A stretch of DNA of 64,000 nt from Streptomyces canus. Its GTDB lineage: Bacteria > Actinomycetota > Actinomycetes > Streptomycetales > Streptomycetaceae. The position numbers and the translations under genes are program-made. The stretch covers positions 7,130,001 to 7,194,000 of the forward strand of contig NZ_CP107989.1 of NCBI RefSeq assembly GCF_041435015.1, in the 5' to 3' direction. The notes beneath the pieces are model-generated. The model saw nothing but the letters and a program-made list of their open reading frames with translations, was not told the DNA's origin and did no database searches. Of this stretch, positions 21,024-62,447 are shown one piece after another. Positions within the stretch are counted from its first letter, which is position 1, and the number at the start of each line of letters is the position of its first letter.

Positions 21024-21443
21024 TCAGTACCAGCCGTTGGCCTGCCAGAAGGACCAGGCGGCGGTCGGGCTGCCGTAGCGGGAGTTCATGTAGTCCAGGC
21101 CCCACTTGATCTGGGTCTTGGCGTTGGTCTTCCAGTCCGAGCCGGCGGCGGCCATCTTCGAACCGGGCAGGGCCTGGACCAGGCCGTAGGCGCCGGAGGA
21201 GGAGTTCATGGCGTCGACGTCCCAGCCGCTCTCGTGCTCGACGATCTTGCTGAACGCGGCGTACTGCGCGGCGTTCGGGATCATCTTGTGCGCGATGGCC
21301 TTGGCCTGGGCGGGCGAGTTCGTGGTGGCCGCATGCGCCGGCGCCGCGGTCAGGACCAGGCCGGCGGTGGCGGCGGCCATCGCGACGGTGGTGATGGCCT
21401 TCTTCGGAGAAGAGATGCGGCGGGCGATGCGGGAGACGGACAC
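21024..21443 (-). CDS. Secreted lytic-transglycosylase-like cell wall hydrolase
   Basis: A 139-residue exported protein. Signal peptide ISSPKKAITTVAMAAATAGL to APAHAA; the mature part FSKIVEHESGWDVDAMNSSSGAYGLVQALPG carries the catalytic Glu of the goose-lysozyme/SLT fold (E of HESGW), then IKWGLDYMNSRYGSP and AWSFWQANGWY. Such small enzymes cleave the glycan strand of peptidoglycan during growth. The start is GTG with AAAGG upstream. The long leader (to about 21600) holds a strong hairpin, so post-transcriptional control is possible. Convergent with the secreted lipase. Confidence 0.87.
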   Translation of the reverse strand: MSVSRIARRISSPKKAITTVAMAAATAGLVLTAAPAHAATTNSPAQAKAIAHKMIPNAAQYAAFSKIVEHESGWDVDAMNSSSGAYGLVQALPGSKMAAAGSDWKTNAKTQIKWGLDYMNSRYGSPTAAWSFWQANGWY

Positions 21444-21684: not shown

Positions 21685-21705
21685 CCTACTGTTCCCGTTA
21701 GTAGG
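21685..21705 (-). terminator. Possible terminator of the cobalamin/ECF operon
   Basis: Inverted repeat CCTACT (21685-21690) and AGTAGG (21700-21705) with a 9-base loop, located 24 bases past the stop of the last gene (21729). The stem is short, so it is a weak call. Confidence 0.35.
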
Positions 21706-21728
21706 TGAGCTGGGTCATGTGGGGTGCT

Positions 21729-22538
21729 TCACCGCTCGGACGCCTCGAATGTGACCTGGGCCTCGAAAGCGGCGCGGCGGGTGGCCCGGCGGAGCGCCCT
21801 GAGGAGGGCCGGACCGAGGGTGAGTGTCAGGACGACGGTCACCAGGGCCCGGCCGAGGTCCCAGCCGAGGGATGTGGCCAGGCAGTACGTGACGAAACGG
21901 GCCAGGTTGGCGGGGACGCCGGCGTGCGGGTCGAAGGCGATGTTCGAGGCGAGGGCGCCCATGAAGGGCCAGCCGGCCATGTTCATGGCGGTGCCATAGG
22001 CGAACGCGGCGAGGAAGCCGTACGCCGCGAGGAGGCGGACCTCGGCGCGGCCCCTGGTCCGCTCGGGGCCCGGCAGCAGGCCCGCGCCCATCGTGAACCA
22101 GCCCATCGCCAGCATCTGGAACGGCATCCACGGGCCCACTCCGCCGGTGAGCAGGGCGGACGTGAACATCGTGACGTTGCCGAGCGCGAAGCCGAAGCCG
22201 GGACCGAGAACCCGGCCGCTGAGCACCATCAGGAAGAACATCGGCTCGATGCCGGCGGTACCCGCGCCGATCGGCCGGAGTGCGGCGCCGGTCGCTGCCA
22301 GTACCCCGAGCATGGCCACGGCCTTGGGGCCAAGGCCCGACTCCGCGATCGCCGCCGCGACCACCGCGACGAGGAGGACGAGGAGCCCGGCGAAGAGCCA
22401 GGGGGCGTCCTGGGTGTGGGTGCCGACCCGGGAGGTGGGCGGGGCGAGGAAGGGCCAGCCGAAGGCGACGACGCCCACGGCGCTGACCAGAGCGAGGGTG
22501 AGCAGGGAGCGGGGACCGAGGCGTACGGCTCGGGTCAT
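21729..22538 (-). CDS. ECF transporter S component (substrate-binding), probably for a corrinoid
   Basis: A 269-residue protein with about six to eight membrane segments: SLLTLALVSAVGVVAFGWPFLAP, APWLFAGLLVLLVAVVAAAI, then FFLMVLSGRVLGPGFGFALGN, GVGPWMPFQMLAMGWFTMGAG and FLAAFAYGTAMNMAGWPFMG, the alternating pattern of ECF S components. It starts with ATG at 22538, overlapping the stop of the ATPase gene by 4 bases. Being last in a cobalamin-riboswitch operon with T and A components, it most likely binds cobalamin or a precursor; the substrate is inferred from regulation. Confidence 0.8.
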   Translation of the reverse strand: MTRAVRLGPRSLLTLALVSAVGVVAFGWPFLAPPTSRVGTHTQDAPWLFAGLLVLLVAVVAAAIAESGLGPKAVAMLGVLAATGAALRPIGAGTAGIEPMFFLMVLSGRVLGPGFGFALGNVTMFTSALLTGGVGPWMPFQMLAMGWFTMGAGLLPGPERTRGRAEVRLLAAYGFLAAFAYGTAMNMAGWPFMGALASNIAFDPHAGVPANLARFVTYCLATSLGWDLGRALVTVVLTLTLGPALLRALRRATRRAAFEAQVTFEASER

Positions 22539-24280
22539 GGCAGGGCCTTCCTCACCTGGGTCACCGTGAGCCACCGCTGGGGGGCGAGGATCTTGCTGAC
22601 CTGCGGGGCGAAGGAGGGGGAGGACGTGATGACGTCCGCCGCCGGGCCGTCGGCGATCACCTCGCCCTCGGCCAGCAGGATCACCCGGTGGGCGAGCTCG
22701 GCGGCGAGTTCCACGTCGTGGGTGGCCAGCATGATCGCGTGGCCGGCGCCGGCGAGTTCCCTCAGCAGCTCGACGAGGCGGGCCTTCGCGGCGTAGTCCA
22801 GGCCGCGGGTCGGTTCGTCGAGGAGCAGGAGGGGCGGGCGGGCGGCCAGGACCACGGCGAGGGCGAGGGCGAGCCGCTGTCCTTCGGAGAGATCGCGGGG
22901 GTGGGTGTCGTCGGTCACGCCGGGGAGGAGGTCGTCGACCAGTGCGCGGCAGGTGCCTGGTGTTGTTTGGGCGTCGGTGTCCGCGGCTCGGCATTCTGCG
23001 GCGACCGTGTCGGCGTACAGGAGGTCGCGGGGTTCCTGGGGTACGAGGCCCACGCGGCGTACGAGGTCCTGCGGGGCGGTGCGGTGGGGCTGGGCGCCGC
23101 CTACGTGGACGGTGCCGGTGGAGGGTTCGACGAGGCCGACCAGGGTGTTGAGGAGGGTGGACTTGCCGGCGCCGTTGCGGCCCATGAGGGCGATGGTCTC
23201 GCCGGGGTGGACGGTGAGGTCGATGTGGCGCAGTGCCTGGACGCGGGCTCTTCGGACGGAGAGGGCCTGGACTTCGGCGGTGAGGTGGGTCGTGCTGGGG
23301 GTGGGGCGACTGCGGCGGGGACGCCAACGGCGGAATGCCCGGCCTTCGGCCGGGATGCTGTTCCCACCCGCATCACCCGTACAACCTTCGTCGGCGGGTG
23401 CGGGCGGCCCCTGTGGGGCGGTCTCGCCGTCGGCGGCTGCGGGTGCGTTGTCCGTAGGTGTTCGCCCGGACAGCCGCTCCCTCAAATCTCCCGCCCTGCG
23501 CCGCGCGTCCCGCACCGTCAGCGGCAGGGGAGCCCAGCCCGCCAGCCGGCCCAGGTCCACCACCGGCGGATACACCGGGGATACGGCCATCATCTCGGCC
23601 GGGGTGCCGAGGACCGGGGCCTCCCCGGGGGCGGGCAGGAGGGCGACCTGGTCGGCGTACTGGATGACGCGTTCCAGGCGGTGTTCGGCCATGAGGACCG
23701 TGGTGCCGAGATCGTGGACCAGCCGTTGGAGCACGGCGAGGACCTCCTCCGCCGCCGCGGGGTCCAGGGCCGACGTCGGTTCGTCCAGGACCAGGACCCG
23801 GGGATGCGGGGTGAGGACCGAGCCGATCGCCACGCGTTGCTGCTGACCCCCGGAGAGGGTGGCCAGGGGGCGGTCGCGCAGGGGCGCCAGGCCCAGCAGG
23901 TCCAGGGTCTCCTCCACCCGGCGGCGCATCACCGTCGGCGGCAGGCCCAACGACTCCATGCCGTAGGCGAGTTCGTCCTCCACGGTGTCCGTCACGAAGT
24001 GGGACAGCGGATCCTGGCCCACCGTGCCGACCACGTCGGCCAGTTCGCGCGGCTTGTGGGTACGGGTGTCGCGGCCGGCCACCGTGACCCGGCCGCGCAG
24101 GGTGCCGCCGGTGAAGTGCGGGACGAGCCCGCTGACCGCGCCGAGGATCGTGGACTTGCCGACCCCCGACGGGCCCACGAGCAGCACGAGTTCACCCTCC
24201 GGCACCTCGAAGTCGACGCCCCGGACGGTGGGTTCGGCTGCCCCGTCGTACGTCACGGAGACATCCTCGAAGCGGATCAC
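22535..24280 (-). CDS. ECF transporter A component: fused tandem ATPases
   Basis: A 581-residue protein with two ABC ATPase domains. Domain 1 (1 to about 235): Walker A GPSGVGKSTILG, Q-loop VGQDP, signature LSGGQQQRVAIG, Walker B RVLVLDEPTSALD, H-loop AEHRLE. Domain 2 (about 345-560): GRNGAGKSTLLNTL, signature LSEGQRLALALAVV, LLLLDEPTRGLD, ATHDVE. They are joined by a Pro/Ala-rich linker. In ECF systems two ATPases (EcfA and EcfA') power the T component; here one fused chain does it. The GTG at 24280 has AAGGAG and overlaps the T gene by 4 bases (GTGA). Confidence 0.93.
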   Translation of the reverse strand: MIRFEDVSVTYDGAAEPTVRGVDFEVPEGELVLLVGPSGVGKSTILGAVSGLVPHFTGGTLRGRVTVAGRDTRTHKPRELADVVGTVGQDPLSHFVTDTVEDELAYGMESLGLPPTVMRRRVEETLDLLGLAPLRDRPLATLSGGQQQRVAIGSVLTPHPRVLVLDEPTSALDPAAAEEVLAVLQRLVHDLGTTVLMAEHRLERVIQYADQVALLPAPGEAPVLGTPAEMMAVSPVYPPVVDLGRLAGWAPLPLTVRDARRRAGDLRERLSGRTPTDNAPAAADGETAPQGPPAPADEGCTGDAGGNSIPAEGRAFRRWRPRRSRPTPSTTHLTAEVQALSVRRARVQALRHIDLTVHPGETIALMGRNGAGKSTLLNTLVGLVEPSTGTVHVGGAQPHRTAPQDLVRRVGLVPQEPRDLLYADTVAAECRAADTDAQTTPGTCRALVDDLLPGVTDDTHPRDLSEGQRLALALAVVLAARPPLLLLDEPTRGLDYAAKARLVELLRELAGAGHAIMLATHDVELAAELAHRVILLAEGEVIADGPAADVITSSPSFAPQVSKILAPQRWLTVTQVRKALP

Positions 24281-25452
24281 GACGACGGCTCCTTGGGCGT
24301 GGGGGCGAGAAAGGCCGGCAGCAGGCCGAGCAGGACGGCCGCGGCCGGCAGGAGAGGCAGGGTGGGCGCGACGAGCGGCACCACGCCCGGGTGCAGGGCC
24401 GCCGGATCGTCGGCTCCCGCGAGGAACATCGCCGCCGCCACGGCCACGCCGGAACCGGCGACCAGGAAGGACCGGACGTCCCAGCGGTCCGGGCGGTAAC
24501 GGGTACGCGGGGTGCGGCGGCCGCCCAGCCGCAGACCCGCGAGGGCGGCCGTGAGACCGGCGAGCAGCACGGGGATGCCGTATGTGCCGCCTTCGGCGGT
24601 GAGGAGTCCGTACGTTCCCGCGCAGACTCCGAGCAGGCCGCCGAGGGTGAGCGCGGTGGTCGTACGGCGGACTCCGGGCGGGGCCTCGGCCGTACGGCCG
24701 TAGCCGCGGGCGTCCATCGCCGCGGCGAGGGCGACCGAGCGCTCCAACGCGCCCTCCAGCACCGGGAGTCCGACCTGGAGCAGACCGCGGATGCCGGTGT
24801 CCGGGCGGCCCCGGAGGCGGCGGGCGGAGCGGAGGCGTTGGACGTCGGCGATGAGATGGGGGGCGAAGGTCAGGGCCACCACCACGGCGACGCCGAGTTC
24901 GTAGAGGGCGCCGGGCAGGGACTTGAGGAGGCGGTGCGGGTTGGCGAGGGCGTTCGCCGCGCCCACGCAGATGAGGAGCGTGGCCAGTTTCAGGCCGTCG
25001 TAGAGGGCGAAGACGAGGGACTCCGCGGTGACCCTGCCGCCCAGCCGGATGCCATGCGCCCAGTCGGGGAGGGGGAGTTCGGGGAGGGTGACGAGCACGT
25101 GCGTGCCGGGTATGGGGGAGCCCAGGGTGATCGCGAAGAGGAGGCGGACCAGGAGGACGGCGAGGGCGAGTTTGACGAAGGCGGCGTAGGAGCGCGACCA
25201 GGGACTGGTCCGGCGGCAGGTCGCCACCACGTACGCGGACGTGGTGATGAGGAGGGCGAGGAGGAGGGGGTTGGTGGTGCGGGTCGCTGCTGTCCCGAGG
25301 GAGAGGGACCACAGCCACCAGGCGCCGGGGTGCAGCGACGCGGGGCGGTTGACCTGGGCAGGGCCGGGTGCGCTCGCCGGCGTCGGTAGGGTGCCGCCCG
25401 TTTTCGGGGCGGCGGCACGACCGCCCGCAGGCCGCGCGGATGCGTTACGCAT
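24277..25452 (-). CDS. ECF transporter T component (EcfT/CbiQ family)
   Basis: A 391-residue membrane protein. The N-terminal 40 residues are a Pro/Ala extension; membrane segments follow (WWLWSLSLGTAATRTTNPLL to LLVRLLFAITLG). The cytoplasmic coupling region contains ERSVALAAAMDARGYGR, the A-R-G coupling motif that docks on the ATPases. The ATG at 25452 overlaps the end of the secreted protein gene by 8 bases. It scaffolds the fused ATPase and the S component encoded downstream. A C-terminal membrane domain of about 120 residues (after residue 265) makes it longer than minimal EcfT proteins. Confidence 0.9.
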   Translation of the reverse strand: MRNASARPAGGRAAAPKTGGTLPTPASAPGPAQVNRPASLHPGAWWLWSLSLGTAATRTTNPLLLALLITTSAYVVATCRRTSPWSRSYAAFVKLALAVLLVRLLFAITLGSPIPGTHVLVTLPELPLPDWAHGIRLGGRVTAESLVFALYDGLKLATLLICVGAANALANPHRLLKSLPGALYELGVAVVVALTFAPHLIADVQRLRSARRLRGRPDTGIRGLLQVGLPVLEGALERSVALAAAMDARGYGRTAEAPPGVRRTTTALTLGGLLGVCAGTYGLLTAEGGTYGIPVLLAGLTAALAGLRLGGRRTPRTRYRPDRWDVRSFLVAGSGVAVAAAMFLAGADDPAALHPGVVPLVAPTLPLLPAAAVLLGLLPAFLAPTPKEPSS

Positions 25453-26074
25453 GCCGGCGGCGCCTCGCCTGCCATACCGCCGCCGCGCCCAACGCCACCA
25501 CGCCCGCCGCTCCCACCCACAGGCCCACCGACGGGCCGCCGTCCTGCTCTCTCTCGGCGGGAGCCGGCTTCGTCGCCCCCGTCACCTGCTCCCCGCACCC
25601 CGTCTGCGGATACCCCGCGATCGCGCACAGCAGGGCGTTGGTGTTGTAGCGGAGCGGCTTGGCGGCCGTCGCCAGGGCCTCCGCCGTCGTCGCGTCGCGG
25701 GGTATCACCGCGCACGCGGTGCGCCGGGCCGGGGGCGCCTCGCCGGACGGGGCGTCCGAAGCCGTACCGAAGTCGAGGACCAACGCCACGCGCTTACGGC
25801 CGTCCCGTGCCGCCGTGTCCCCGCAGATCGCCGCGAACGACGCCGACCCGCGGGGCGTGTCCGCGTCCGCCGAGTCCTCGCTCACCGCGAAGCGGAAGCC
25901 CTGGACGTCGCCGTCGGAGGGGACCGCCGTCGAGGGGCCCTCGGTGGCGTAGGTCCAGGTCGAGCCGGTGCGTTCCCAGAAGGACCAGTAGCGGTACCCG
26001 GCGGCGTGGGCCGGACTCGCGGTGGCCAGGAGGAGGCCCGCCAGGAGGGAGAGGAGGAGTGCCCGCCGGGTCAC
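25445..26074 (-). CDS. Secreted, membrane-anchored protein of the ECF operon
   Basis: A 209-residue exported protein. Signal peptide MTRRALLLSLLAGLLLATASPAHAA; the mature part begins GYRYWSFWERTGSTWTYATEG and contains four Cys (CGD, TACAV, LLCAIAG, GCGEQ) that may form disulfides. A C-terminal membrane segment (VGLWVGAAGVVALGAAAVW) plus basic tail anchors it. The GTG at 26074 overlaps the upstream toroid gene (26071). I know no experimental function; W-S-x-W-E and YATEGP blocks are typical of this Streptomyces family. Its place between the toroid protein and the ECF transporter suggests an extracellular binding or docking role. Confidence 0.75.
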   Translation of the reverse strand: MTRRALLLSLLAGLLLATASPAHAAGYRYWSFWERTGSTWTYATEGPSTAVPSDGDVQGFRFAVSEDSADADTPRGSASFAAICGDTAARDGRKRVALVLDFGTASDAPSGEAPPARRTACAVIPRDATTAEALATAAKPLRYNTNALLCAIAGYPQTGCGEQVTGATKPAPAEREQDGGPSVGLWVGAAGVVALGAAAVWQARRRRHA

Positions 26075-27246
26075 GGCTGCTTCCTCTTGTTGCGGCTGCT
26101 GAGCAGGAAGCCGACGCCCGCGCCGGCGGCGAGACCGGCGCCGACCAGCCACCACACGGAGGTGCCGGAGTCGTCCTGGGACGCGGTGACCGGCGCCGGT
26201 CCCGTCGCGGTCAGCTGCTTGACCAGGTCCGTGCCGCCGAAGTCGCTTGGGTCGGCGCCACCCGCCTCGGCGGCGAGGATCAGCTGGGCGTATGCCGCCG
26301 GGCCGTTCTGCTCGGCCCACTTCGCGGAGTTCCGCTCCAGCCAGCGCAGCGGACCCGTGGCCGCCGCCGTCCCGCCTTGCGCGGCCAGCGCCACGACCGC
26401 GTCGGCCGTGTTGCCGTAGTCGGGCTGGTTCTCGGAGCCGGGCAGGGCCGAGGTCAGGTGGCCGTCCTTCGCGACGGCCTTCGCCAGGTAGGCCGAGCCA
26501 TTGGCCGCCGCGTCCTTGGGAGTGGGGCGGGCCGCGTCGGTGCAGGCGGCGTTCTTCTTGTCGCCGGCCTTCACCGAGACCATGCCCTGGCCCAGCGCAC
26601 CGACGACGGCCGCCGCGGTCGCGTCCGCGTTGGCCGTGAGCTTGCCCTTCTTGTCCGGCTCGTAGGCGAACGCGCCTCCGTCGGCGCACGGCAGGGACAG
26701 CTTCAGCAGGGCGTCGTAGGGCGACTTCGCGCCGTTGCGGATCGTCGAGACCGGGGTGTGCTGGGTCACGAGTGCGCCGATGACAACGGACGTCGAGTTG
26801 GCGTCGCTGGCCCCGCCGGGGGTGTAGCCCCAGCCGCCGTCCTTGTTCTGGACGGACTTCAGCCAGGTCACCGCCTTCGTGACCGCGGTGCCGTGCCCGC
26901 CGACCGCGGACAGGGCCTGCGCGGCGGCGGCCGTGCTGTTGGTGTCGACCATCACTTTGGCGTCGCAGGCCTTGGCCGGGTTCGCGCGGAACGCCGGGAA
27001 CGCCCCGCTCTCGCACTGCTGCCCGGCCAACCAGTCGACGGTCGCGGCGGCCGGCTCCGCGTGCACCCGGTACAGGGCGATGAGCGCGAGCGACTGCCGC
27101 CAGACCCCGTCGTACGTGGGGTCGCCGCTGCCGTACAGCCCCGAGGGCAGGGACGGCGACGGAGACGGCGAGGCGGCCACGGCGGGTGTGGCCGTGCCGA
27201 TGGCGACGGTGGCGGCCAGGACCGCGGCGCTGCGGCGGACGTTCAT
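26071..27246 (-). CDS. Secreted, membrane-anchored alpha/alpha-toroid (prenyltransferase-repeat) protein, transcobalamin-like candidate
   Basis: A 391-residue protein. Signal peptide MNVRRSAAVLAATVAIGTATPAVA; the mature part contains toroid repeats of the prenyltransferase/squalene-cyclase type: RQSLALIALYRV, NSTAAAAQALSAVGG, KDGGWGYTPGGASDANSTSVVIGALV, ADATAAAVVGALGQG, GNTADAVVALAAQG. A C-terminal segment (VWWLVGAGLAAGAGVGFLL) and NKRKQP anchor it outside the cell. No cyclase DxDD motif is visible, so it is probably not a terpene enzyme. Vertebrate transcobalamin and intrinsic factor use the same alpha6/alpha6 barrel to hold B12. It is first in the cobalamin-riboswitch operon; B12 binding is inference. 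Confidence 0.8.
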   Translation of the reverse strand: MNVRRSAAVLAATVAIGTATPAVAASPSPSPSLPSGLYGSGDPTYDGVWRQSLALIALYRVHAEPAAATVDWLAGQQCESGAFPAFRANPAKACDAKVMVDTNSTAAAAQALSAVGGHGTAVTKAVTWLKSVQNKDGGWGYTPGGASDANSTSVVIGALVTQHTPVSTIRNGAKSPYDALLKLSLPCADGGAFAYEPDKKGKLTANADATAAAVVGALGQGMVSVKAGDKKNAACTDAARPTPKDAAANGSAYLAKAVAKDGHLTSALPGSENQPDYGNTADAVVALAAQGGTAAATGPLRWLERNSAKWAEQNGPAAYAQLILAAEAGGADPSDFGGTDLVKQLTATGPAPVTASQDDSGTSVWWLVGAGLAAGAGVGFLLSSRNKRKQP

Positions 27247-27299
27247 GATCGACGGATGCCCTTCTCCCTGCGGAGAGCCGGGCAGCGCGGGAGGCCCCC

Positions 27300-27440
27300 G
27301 GGCGGCTCGGCTCCGTATACCTCGACGGTGCCGCGCACCGGCCGGTCTCCCAGGCCCTGGAGGCACTGGGGAAGGGGCAGCGCCGGAATTGCGCCGGCTT
27401 CCCCCCGTACGGCATGTGATGACGACCTGGCTACTGTACT
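27300..27440 (-). ncRNA. Cobalamin riboswitch
   Basis: Read on the reverse strand, the core GGGGAAGCCGG-CGC-A-A-TTCCGGCGCTGCCCC lies at 27375-27405, CCCCAGTGCC follows, and the 3' conserved block GGGAGACCGGCCGGTG is at 27336-27351. These match the GGGAA-x-x-GGTG-AATCC and the GxCAGGARACCxGCC elements of cobalamin riboswitches. The spacing between them is short, so the peripheral domain is reduced, as in small variants of the family. It precedes the toroid/secreted/ECF operon by about 55 bases; B12 binding would shut the operon off. Confidence 0.75.
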
Positions 27441-27513
27441 CGCCCGTAGGAAAGCGCTGAGAGCCGCCTGTGGAGCCTCGGCGAGGGCCAGGGCCTGTCC
27501 GGCTGATCAGGCG

Positions 27514-28539
27514 CTAGACAGCCACGTACGTCACCGGATCGCTCCCCGTCACCGCCTCCGCGCGGCCCAGCTTCACCAGCCGCCGCAGATGCGCCTCGGC
27601 TTCCGAGACCGCGATGTTCCGTGATCCGTAGGGGATCTGGTCCCAGGGCCGGTTCCACTCCATGCGCTCGGCGAGCTGCCAGGGGGTGAGGGGCTCGGCG
27701 AGGAGGGAGTGCAGGTCGGTGAGGCGTTCCTCGTGGTGGGCGAGCAACTGCCCCACGCGGGCGCTCGCGTCGGTGAAGACGTGCTGGTGGGCGGGGAGGA
27801 CCTCGGCGGGGGCGAGCCGCCCGACGCGTTCCAGGGAGTCGAGGTAGTCGCCGAGGGGGTCGGTGACGGTGGCGTCGTCGGGGTCCTCGTACAGGCCGAT
27901 GTGCGGGGTGATCTCGGGGAGCAGATGATCGCCGGAGAACAGCCGCCCGTGGCCCGGCAGCCCGGAGGGGTGTTCCTCCTCCAGGTGCAGGCAGACATGG
28001 CCGGGTGTGTGTCCCGGGGTCCAGATGGCGCGGAGCCTGCGGCCGGGGAGGTCGAGGAGGTCGCCGGGGACGATCTCGCGGTCGGGCAACGCGGGGGAGA
28101 AGCCGGGCAGTTCGCGGCGCCGCGCGGTGCGCAGCGGGGCCACGTGGTCCTCGGGGGCGCCCGCCGCCACCAACTTGGCCGTCATATAGGTGAACCAGCG
28201 CTCGGCACGGGTCTCACGGGTGCGCCGCACGATCGCGGAGTCCGCGGCGTGCATCGCGATCCACGCCCCGGATGCCTCCCGCACTTTGCCGGAGAGGCCG
28301 TGGTGGTCGGGGTGGTGGTGGGTGATGACCACGCCGTGGATCTCGTCCATGTCGGTCCCGCACGCCGTCAGCCCCTCGGCGAGGGTGTCCCAGGAGTCCG
28401 GGTCGTCCCAGCCGGTGTCGACCAGCACCGGCCCCCGGTCGGTGTCGACCACGTACACGAGGGTGTGGCCGAGCGGATTGTCGGGGATGGGCACCTGAAC
28501 GGACCGGACGCCGCCACCATGGTCGTACACCTGCGCCAT
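27514..28539 (-). CDS. MBL-fold metallo-hydrolase
   Basis: A 341-residue metallo-beta-lactamase-fold enzyme. Metal-binding motif VVITHHHPDHHGLSG (H-x-H-x-D-H), later His in WTPGHTPGHVCLHL, Asp in LFSGDHLLPEI and His in PAHQHVF; a C-terminal winged helix-like region (TPWQLAERMEWNRPWDQIPYG) is typical of the LACTB2/thioesterase-like group. The ATG at 28539 has GGGGAG. Its 5' region carries a KstR-like operator shared with the divergent aldehyde dehydrogenase, so a thioesterase role in sterol catabolism is possible though unproved. Confidence 0.85.
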   Translation of the reverse strand: MAQVYDHGGGVRSVQVPIPDNPLGHTLVYVVDTDRGPVLVDTGWDDPDSWDTLAEGLTACGTDMDEIHGVVITHHHPDHHGLSGKVREASGAWIAMHAADSAIVRRTRETRAERWFTYMTAKLVAAGAPEDHVAPLRTARRRELPGFSPALPDREIVPGDLLDLPGRRLRAIWTPGHTPGHVCLHLEEEHPSGLPGHGRLFSGDHLLPEITPHIGLYEDPDDATVTDPLGDYLDSLERVGRLAPAEVLPAHQHVFTDASARVGQLLAHHEERLTDLHSLLAEPLTPWQLAERMEWNRPWDQIPYGSRNIAVSEAEAHLRRLVKLGRAEAVTGSDPVTYVAV

Positions 28540-28574
28540 GAGCTCCCCAATCACCGCGTTCCCAGCATGATAAC

Positions 28575-61140: not shown

Positions 61141-62121
61141 ATGACTGCACGCGGCTGGTTCCTGTTCTCCCTGATGGGAGTGGTCTGGGGCATCCCCTAC
61201 CTGCTGATCAAAGTGGCGGTGGATGCCCCGCTGTCCCCGTCGATGGTGGTGTTCACGCGCTGCGCGCTGGGCGCGGCCCTGCTCCTGCCCTTCGCGATAC
61301 GGCAGGGCGACCTGCCCGCCACCGTTCGAACCCACTGGCGCCCGATGCTGGCCTTCGCGTGCATCGAGATCATCGGCCCCTGGTGGACCCTGACCGACGC
61401 GGAACGCCACCTGTCCAGCTCGACAGCGGGCCTGCTGATCGCGGGCGTCCCGATCGTAGGAGTGGCCCTGGCCCGCTTCTTCGGCGAAACGGAGAGGCTG
61501 GGAGTGCGGCGCGTCGTCGGGCTCGGCCTGGGCCTGGCCGGCGTAGGAGTCCTCACGGTCCCGCACCTGACAGGCGGGGACGCCCGCTCCCTGGCCGAGG
61601 TGCTGCTCACGGTGATCGGCTACGCAACGGCCCCGTTGATCGCCGCGCGTTACCTCAAGGCTGTCCCGACCCTCCAGCTCATCGCCCCCTGCCTGGCCCT
61701 CGCGGCCCTGGTCTACGCCCCGGCGGCGGCGGTGACCTGGCCGTCGGCGATGCCCTCCCCCTCGGTCCTGACCGCGCTGGCCACCCTGGGCGTGGTCTGC
61801 ACCGCGGTCGCCTTCGTGGCCTTCCTGGAGCTGATCAAGGAGGCGGGCCCGACCAGGGCAACCGTCTTCACGTACGTCAATCCGGCGGTAGCGGTGGCAG
61901 CGGGCGCGATCTTCCTGTCCGAGCCACTGACGGCGACCATCCTGGCGGCCTTCACCCTGATCCTGGCGGGCTCGGTACTGGCGACCGTCTCCGGTCAGGG
62001 GGCCGCCACCCGCCCGGTAACATGGTCGACACGGCAGACGAGCCGGGCGGACGGCCGCGTGAAGTCCCTCAGGGGTCTTCCCGAGGAACGTCCGGGCTCC
62101 ACAGGGCAGGGTGATGGCTAA
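61141..62121 (+). CDS. EamA-family (DMT) transporter, C-terminus overlapping rnpB
   Basis: A 326-residue exporter with about ten membrane segments: GWFLFSLMGVVWGIPYLLIKVAV, MLAFACIEIIGPWWTLTDA, GLLIAGVPIVGVALARFFGE and the second EamA repeat TVIGYATAPLIAARYLKA to PAVAVAAGAIFLSEPLTATIL. The final 28 codons (from 62038) lie inside the RNase P RNA gene and are charged and unlike the family, so the functional protein probably ends near residue 298. ATG at 61141. AraC regulator 18 bases upstream is the likely controller. Amino-acid or metabolite export. Confidence 0.87.
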   Translation: MTARGWFLFSLMGVVWGIPYLLIKVAVDAPLSPSMVVFTRCALGAALLLPFAIRQGDLPATVRTHWRPMLAFACIEIIGPWWTLTDAERHLSSSTAGLLIAGVPIVGVALARFFGETERLGVRRVVGLGLGLAGVGVLTVPHLTGGDARSLAEVLLTVIGYATAPLIAARYLKAVPTLQLIAPCLALAALVYAPAAAVTWPSAMPSPSVLTALATLGVVCTAVAFVAFLELIKEAGPTRATVFTYVNPAVAVAAGAIFLSEPLTATILAAFTLILAGSVLATVSGQGAATRPVTWSTRQTSRADGRVKSLRGLPEERPGSTGQGDG

Positions 62122-62447
62122 CGGCCACCCGGGGTGACCCGCGGGAAAGTGCCACAGAAAACAAACCGCCGGGGACTTCGGTCCTCGGTAAGGGTGAAAC
62201 GGCGGTGTAAGAGACCACCAGTGCCCAGGGCGACCTGAGCAGCTAGGTAAACCCCACCCGGAGCAAGGTCAAAAGGAGCGCGGTAACACGCACTCTGCGG
62301 GGACGTTCGAGGGCTGCCCGCCCGAGTCCCCGGGTAGACCGCACGAGACCGGCGGCAACGCCGGTCCTAGATGGATGGCCGTCTCCCCGGCCGCCGCGAG
62401 GCGGTTGGGTGACAGAACCCGGCGTACAGCCCGACTCGTCTGCCGCC
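62038..62447 (+). ncRNA. rnpB: RNase P RNA (rnpB), actinobacterial type A
   Basis: All universal blocks are present in order: GAGGAACGTCCGGGCTCC at 62083-62100, CACAGGGCAGGGTGATGGCT next, GTGCCACAGAAAACAAACCG, GGGTGAAACGGCGGTGTAAG, CCACCAGTGCCCAGGG, CCGGAGCAAGGTCAAAAGG, GGTAGACCGCACGAGACCGG, CTAGATGGATGGCCG and GACAGAACCCGGCGTACAGC with GACTCGTC at the 3' end. P1 can form between GGGCGGAC near 62045 and GTCTGCC near 62438. It processes tRNA 5' ends. The exact ends are estimated from the P1 pairing. Confidence 0.95.

Follow-up and report, generated by a model that had tools for sequence, protein, structure and literature searches.

Transcobalamin, one of the vitamin B12 carriers of animals, sandwiches a single B12 molecule between a toroid and a C-terminal beta-grasp domain (PMC1796856). 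Bacterial proteins of comparable design were predicted by Burroughs et al. in 2007: secreted proteins with a toroid and an SLBB domain, encoded in operons with CbiO and CbiQ, for which B12 scavenging was proposed, in bacteria usually without key enzymes of B12 synthesis (PMC1796856). Here we analyse an operon of this kind from Streptomyces canus. It lies in a stretch of 64,000 nucleotides (nt; NZ_CP107989.1, positions 7,130,001-7,194,000), hereafter the window, and encodes two secreted, anchored proteins of the SCO2321 (toroid) and SCO2322 families together with an energy-coupling factor (ECF) importer. We lean towards reading it as a system for corrinoid salvage, in which a two-chain, rearranged transcobalamin-like receptor feeds its own ECF importer.

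The systems of Burroughs et al. share with this operon a secreted or anchored toroid and a transcobalamin-type beta-grasp domain beside a CbiO-like ATPase and a CbiQ-like subunit, and they sometimes include a second extracellular SLBB protein (PMC1796856). Fusion of toroid and SLBB domain is common among them, in a clade described as a Gram-positive innovation, whereas here the two are separate chains (PMC1796856). A further difference is that SCO2322, and apparently SCO2321, are permuted in the present operon, and that its SLBB-like domain is missed by the Pfam family DUF4430; the words Streptomyces and circular are absent from the 2007 text (PMC1796856). In animal transcobalamin, intrinsic factor and haptocorrin, the sandwich of toroid and C-terminal beta-grasp domain that we propose as the model is made by one soluble chain in canonical order; here, PF01122 finds no match above its cut-off. 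The vitamin B12 importer ECF-CbrT is likewise of the ECF type and has the substrate class proposed here, but CbrT belongs to a group of S components for which a shared module is predicted, whereas the present operon has a dedicated T-AA-S set and extracellular partners (PMC5997447). A PDB sequence search with the profile of the operon's S component found no solved S component and no transcobalamin. Bacteroides also captures B12 at the cell surface, but with lipoproteins and in another phylum (PMC6143338).

The first-pass annotation of this DNA knew of no described bacterial equivalent; a prediction of the kind has in fact been in print since Burroughs et al. 2007 (PMC1796856). What we did not find in the literature searched is the actinobacterial two-chain permuted form and the near-universal presence of its toroid gene in sampled Streptomyces. 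No functional study of the operon was recognised in that literature, and an earlier mention may exist in Rodionov 2003 or 2009. The signal peptide of S. coelicolor SCO2321 is known from another context, as the source of the cell-penetrating peptide MTD 1067, used as a delivery tag (PMC9237094).

Gene content and conservation of the operon

Five minus-strand genes span 21729-27246, and adjoining genes overlap by 4, 8, 4 and 4 nt according to their coordinates:

26071-27246, minus strand: SCO2321-family toroid protein, secreted and C-terminally anchored; 391 aa; NF053823 at 569.2 bits (cut-off 300)
25445-26074, minus strand: SCO2322-family second secreted, anchored protein with a GTG start; 209 aa; NF040672 at 226.3 bits (cut-off 85)
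within 25445-26074, minus strand: GPS-CTERM anchor domain of the SCO2322 protein; NF040681 at 34.8 bits
24277-25452, minus strand: EcfT, CbiQ-like transmembrane coupling subunit; PF02361 at 33.4 bits (cut-off 25)
22535-24280, minus strand: EcfA-EcfA', double ATPase in a single chain; two ABC_tran stretches, the top NCBIfam matches being ECF ATPases below their cut-offs
21729-22538, minus strand: EcfS, substrate-binding membrane subunit; PF12822 at 31.4 bits (cut-off 30.7)

These family matches agree with the gene order given in the first-pass annotation, namely a toroid, a second secreted protein, and ECF T, fused A and S components. Its placing of both extracellular proteins as secreted and anchored also agrees with what we find: each has a hydrophobic stretch at the N-terminus and another at the C-terminus, and the second carries GPS-CTERM. 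To call the second protein 'Cys-rich', however, was too strong, as SCO2322 has four invariant cysteines (62 sequences); the toroid also has four (77 of 77). EcfS matched no NCBIfam family, and its relatives occur in many Actinomycetota. A group I ECF transporter has its own module of T, A, A' and S; all four are encoded in the operon, which places it in group I.

The gene set is conserved. Each of the 8 Streptomyces loci examined has all five genes together, and the SCO2321 family is present in 120 of the 121 sampled Streptomyces genomes, above its cut-off in 115. A search with the S component kept 80 named loci of at least 573 relatives, among them loci of Acidimicrobiia, Amycolatopsis, Micromonospora, Kribbella, Nocardioides, Knoellia, Thermomonospora and others. 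Our counts use the 65 loci that had T, S and enough flanking sequence; 15 were dropped. Of the 65 loci listed, 64 have an SLBB domain close to the ECF genes; 55 have a toroid there, and 55 have both. Toroid and SLBB domain share one stop-to-stop open reading frame (ORF) in 11 of the 55, so that separate chains are the common state in relatives and fusion the minority. Three fused proteins carry toroid, SCO2322-profile and CW_binding_2 repeat matches.

Fusion was seen on the importer side as well. Five loci (L145, L146, L147, L153 and L154) have ECF A and S matches in one long stop-to-stop ORF (868-1151 aa), which suggests natural ATPase-S component fusions beside DUF4430 or SLBB genes. Homologues of SCO2322 bear the precomputed Pfam label PF28005, and our local Pfam scan of the window protein did not return that label. 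The operon is flanked by genes for a metallo-beta-lactamase-fold protein (27517-28554) and a small transglycosylase-like protein (21027-21443), in neither of which was a B12 link seen. RNase P RNA lies at 62039-62442 of the window and near the operon in two distant relatives (L068, 3564-3931; L069, 41-463), perhaps by chance or through old synteny.

Circular permutation and a probable link to DUF4430

By eye, the halves of SCO2322 resemble a DUF4430 domain in swapped order. The corresponding segments in the window are:

25871-25999, minus strand: N-terminal half of the SCO2322 domain (YWSFW...GDVQGFRF), which is the C-terminal half in relatives (alignment, hhalign)
25583-25798, minus strand: C-terminal half of the SCO2322 domain (RVALVLDFG...LLCAIAGYP), which is the N-terminal half in relatives (alignment, hhalign)

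In two genomes (G134 and G284) the second half of the SCO2322 model matches upstream of the first. Comparisons of swapped and native profiles took ORFs at E <=0.01 and toroid matches of at least 30 bits. Among 28 outgroup ORFs, full scores favour a half-swapped SCO2322 profile over the native order in 27, in two of these by less than 0.5 bit; the one exception (G062, locus L055, of the same class) has a domain that fits the native permuted order. By best domain, the half-swapped profile is better in 94 of 103 ORFs (25/28, 4/5 and 65/70). When SCO2322 was aligned with its relatives in hhalign, the swapped order scored 114 (probability 99.4, 108 columns) and the native order 67 (probability 98.0, one column aligned). 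In the window genome, the canonical-order profile matches only positions 68-111. These comparisons show that SCO2322 is a circular permutant of the domain found in relatives. A beta-grasp fold that has been circularly permuted in nature is known from the UFD domain of the eukaryotic E1 enzyme, although its function is unrelated to that of the operon and the SCO2322 fold is only a putative beta-grasp (PMC1949818).

The pieces of the toroid model also occur in another order in relatives:

26515-27114, minus strand: toroid block of residues 45-244, the apparent C-terminal part in many relatives (swapped-order profile)
26212-26514, minus strand: toroid block of residues 245-345 with the FGGTDL motif, the apparent N-terminal part in many relatives (motif order)

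Of 98 relatives, 45 favour a block-swapped toroid profile by more than 5 bits and 3 the native profile, and in 50 the two profiles score within 5 bits of each other. The GGxDL motif precedes the NxT motifs in 40 of 116 relatives and follows them in 1 (75 not scorable), and it follows them in 73 of 77 SCO2321 proteins (4 not scorable). The toroid thus appears to be circularly permuted too, less certainly than SCO2322 because it has internal repeats. The exception is locus L067, where a toroid in permuted order accompanies an SLBB domain in canonical order, and the two permutations therefore need not be one event. As far as the profiles and motifs tell, circular permutation of both domains is particular to this lineage. 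Canonical-order SLBB systems occur in some Streptomyces (L065 in genome G171, L163, L171 and others), and G171 has a SCO2322-family gene as well.

DUF4430 is the C-terminal domain of transcobalamins (PMC4350170). Our canonical-order SLBB profile, found in 56 of 296 sampled genomes, matches three PF14478 (DUF4430) domains, each match starting at position 3 or 4 and ending at 109 of 113 (G249, E 6.9e-6; G099, 1.7e-4; G228, 4.8e-4); each E-value refers to a single genome out of 296 searched, and the three genomes belong to one family-level group (f40), that is, one lineage. Five of five loci (L148-L152) have canonical DUF4430, A, S and toroid together, and T was found in four of them. PF14478 itself has no match in the window's SCO2322 protein and none in the window genome, and a PDB sequence search with the DUF4430 profile returned no transcobalamin but 3u7z, labelled a putative metal binding protein (E 0.016). 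A homology of SCO2322 to DUF4430 through these intermediates is supported, if less strongly than the permutation. Since the toroid fold is not diagnostic (see below), the second protein makes the stronger argument for a transcobalamin-like receptor.

Of the other readings, the best surviving accepts a corrinoid importer and assigns the toroid and SCO2322 to docking, wall anchoring or corrinoid release, with no sandwich. In ECF importers the S component itself binds the substrate (PMC5997447), 10 of the 65 loci listed have no toroid found near the ECF genes, a result that also counts against a receptor pair, and toroids form enzyme folds as well. We nevertheless think this reading unlikely, given that toroid and SLBB domain share one ORF in 11 loci, that SLBB stays near the ECF genes in nearly all loci listed, and that SLBB is linked to DUF4430.

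The riboswitch remnant and the substrate

The first-pass annotation placed a cobalamin riboswitch before the operon and tied its case to the Rfam cobalamin model. The claim holds for those relatives whose leaders reach the gathering threshold; the leader in the window does not, and no RF00174 match at Rfam gathering was found anywhere in the window. A permissive scan located a damaged site:

27323-27442, minus strand: cobalamin riboswitch remnant with a deletion junction near 27347; the 5' part of the aptamer and the downstream leader are kept, the P6/B12-box region is lost

It scores 21.7 bits against a gathering threshold of 31.5 (E 0.0033 in 1 kb) and ranks fifth in the 10.7-Mb genome (E 0.008), after sites of 84.5, 52.6, 39.4 and 30.7 bits, of which the 52.6-bit site lies ~3 kb from cobN. 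In an alignment of eleven leaders, four (G476, G509, G334 and G390) have the canonical form, and ~80 nt including the P6 and B12-box region are missing from the window and from G427 and G428. The leaders of G488 and G522 are 77-81 nt longer than that of the window. Four leaders (G522, G488, G314 at L101 and G311 at L082) carry a ~40-nt insertion after CTGAC, palindromic by eye, at about the same point of the riboswitch. The element UGGGAGACC of the window was considered as an intact B12 box and dropped, as the alignment suggests that it originated in an inserted element. Judged from these alignments, the aptamer of the window is probably dead.

A core aptamer pattern with 9 substitutions allowed is present upstream in 31 of 36 Streptomyces loci, a count made without a shuffled control that includes the window itself, at the substitution limit. 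At gathering, RF00174 was found in the same place in 2 of 8 and 10 of 20 Streptomyces loci, and in other locus sets a riboswitch lies upstream of toroid or SLBB genes in 6/9, 3/10, 5/8 and 4/7 loci. Altogether 62 loci were scanned, and in 30 of them a match at gathering lies no more than 500 nt 5' of a toroid or SLBB domain on the same strand; 33 of 44 gathering-level matches are so placed, eleven being placed otherwise; the Rfam scans left out L047-L054, L074, L095-L102, L145-L158 and 65 of the 80 named loci. The consensus fold of twelve leaders has two-sided changes at 5 of 26 pairs. In one 19-kb region (L056, G204), a single ECF set is preceded by two toroid-SLBB pairs, and four cobalamin riboswitches reach gathering. 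Near the ECF operon at L170 (15616), L173 (1598) and L206 (2662) there are extra toroid genes, some of them divergent, each with its own cobalamin riboswitch.

These leaders also bear on the substrate, which might be another B12-related compound, such as cobinamide, a lower-ligand base or nucleoside, or cobalt, instead of cobalamin. In the S. lividans reannotation the two RF00174 sites are at cbiM and at cobD-cobQ-cobN, and cobalamin riboswitches thus precede cobalt transport and B12 synthesis genes too (PMC8079986); EcfT is CbiQ-like, and the host has CobN. We regard such a substrate as improbable: the S component is matched by PF12822 but by no NCBIfam family, and DUF4430 and transcobalamin point to whole corrinoids.

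Toroid fold, proposed mechanism and significance

The AlphaFold2 model of the toroid (pLDDT, the predicted local distance difference test, 81.5) has PDB matches topped by toroid folds, which assigns it to the alpha/alpha-toroids as a fold class only. In Foldseek, class II terpene cyclases come first and transcobalamin follows at rank 21 (E 8e-4); it is not among the best 50 VIA matches listed for the model, nor was it found by a PDB sequence search with the toroid profile. Three of five weak PF01122 matches (E 0.07-0.32) lie in relatives' toroids. We dropped the fold as proof of B12 binding, because its matches range over terpene cyclases, complement TED domains, sugar epimerases and transcobalamin. 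DxDD is the catalytic acid motif of class II terpene cyclases. It is absent from the toroid core in all 77 sequences, its 12 occurrences all falling in the C-terminal linker. Of the likeness to transcobalamin that the first-pass annotation described, what remains is a fold match behind those to terpene cyclases.

A third reading takes the toroid for an enzyme, terpene cyclase-like or carbohydrate-active, that is secreted and stands in the operon by chance. In its favour, terpene cyclases give the best matches by fold and by sequence, prenyltransferase/squalene oxidase repeat protein is the NCBI name of many homologues, and the string DxDD turns up at some position in 4 of 20 sequences from the set of relatives' toroids. 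We think it very improbable, because the protein has N- and C-terminal hydrophobic stretches and no core DxDD, and toroids lie near ECF genes in 55 of the 65 loci listed and under riboswitches.

Several results weigh against corrinoid salvage by a transcobalamin-like receptor. The nearest solved structures of the toroid, by fold and by sequence, are terpene cyclases, and PF01122 (Cobalamin_bind) is above its cut-off in none of the 296 genomes. The AlphaFold2 model of SCO2322 is poor (pLDDT 67.6) and gave no usable fold match. A direct hhalign comparison of SLBB with DUF4430 is co-linear and weak (probability 23, P 1.8e-4), Pfam scans of relatives returned DUF4430 in 0 of 10 and in 1 of 15 at E 0.13, and PDB sequence searches with SLBB and fused profiles found no transcobalamin. 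There is no SLBB match in 240 of the 296 sampled genomes of the phylum. A gathering-level riboswitch placed as described above is missing from 32 of the 62 scanned loci, and the RNAalifold covariation term on 12 leaders is unfavourable (+0.15). The host genome has CobN (1191 bits), so the host probably makes B12 itself. The reading is weakened further because the DUF4430 matches come from one lineage and because separate chains, not fusions, are the common state.

With these reservations, we propose the following mechanism. The operon would serve the salvage of a corrinoid, either vitamin B12 or a close precursor. The SCO2321 toroid and the SLBB/DUF4430-like domain of SCO2322 would be the two halves of a receptor, each held by its C-terminal hydrophobic anchor, and may close around one corrinoid like the two domains of single-chain transcobalamin. 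The corrinoid would then be handed to the dedicated S component, with T and A-A' driving import. In relatives, ample B12 would switch the operon off through the cobalamin riboswitch; in the strain of the window and the two relatives that share its damaged aptamer, the operon probably escapes B12 control. Salvage would save costly B12 synthesis in a CobN-bearing host. The surface pair for corrinoid capture suggested in the first-pass annotation is consistent with the gene set, with the riboswitches found in relatives and with the DUF4430 link, and is not helped by the undiagnostic toroid or by the failing riboswitch of the window. A fuller version of the proposal, which we put forward only tentatively, is a doubly permuted two-chain transcobalamin: two separately anchored proteins would clamp a corrinoid and load it onto a dedicated ECF S component, in a genus that probably makes B12 and in whose sampled members the toroid is near-universal.

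If correct, this reading would give the animal B12 carriers an actinobacterial counterpart, a receptor-pump system whose domains occur both fused and separate. An acquisition of transcobalamin by animals from Gram-positive bacteria, as proposed in 2007 (PMC1796856), could then be examined with real proteins. The operon would also provide a case of an ECF importer with extracellular binding partners, a natural case of two partner domains permuted within one lineage, and a function for two families that NCBI names by locus tag only. For Streptomyces, it would suggest B12 salvage in a probable B12 producer.

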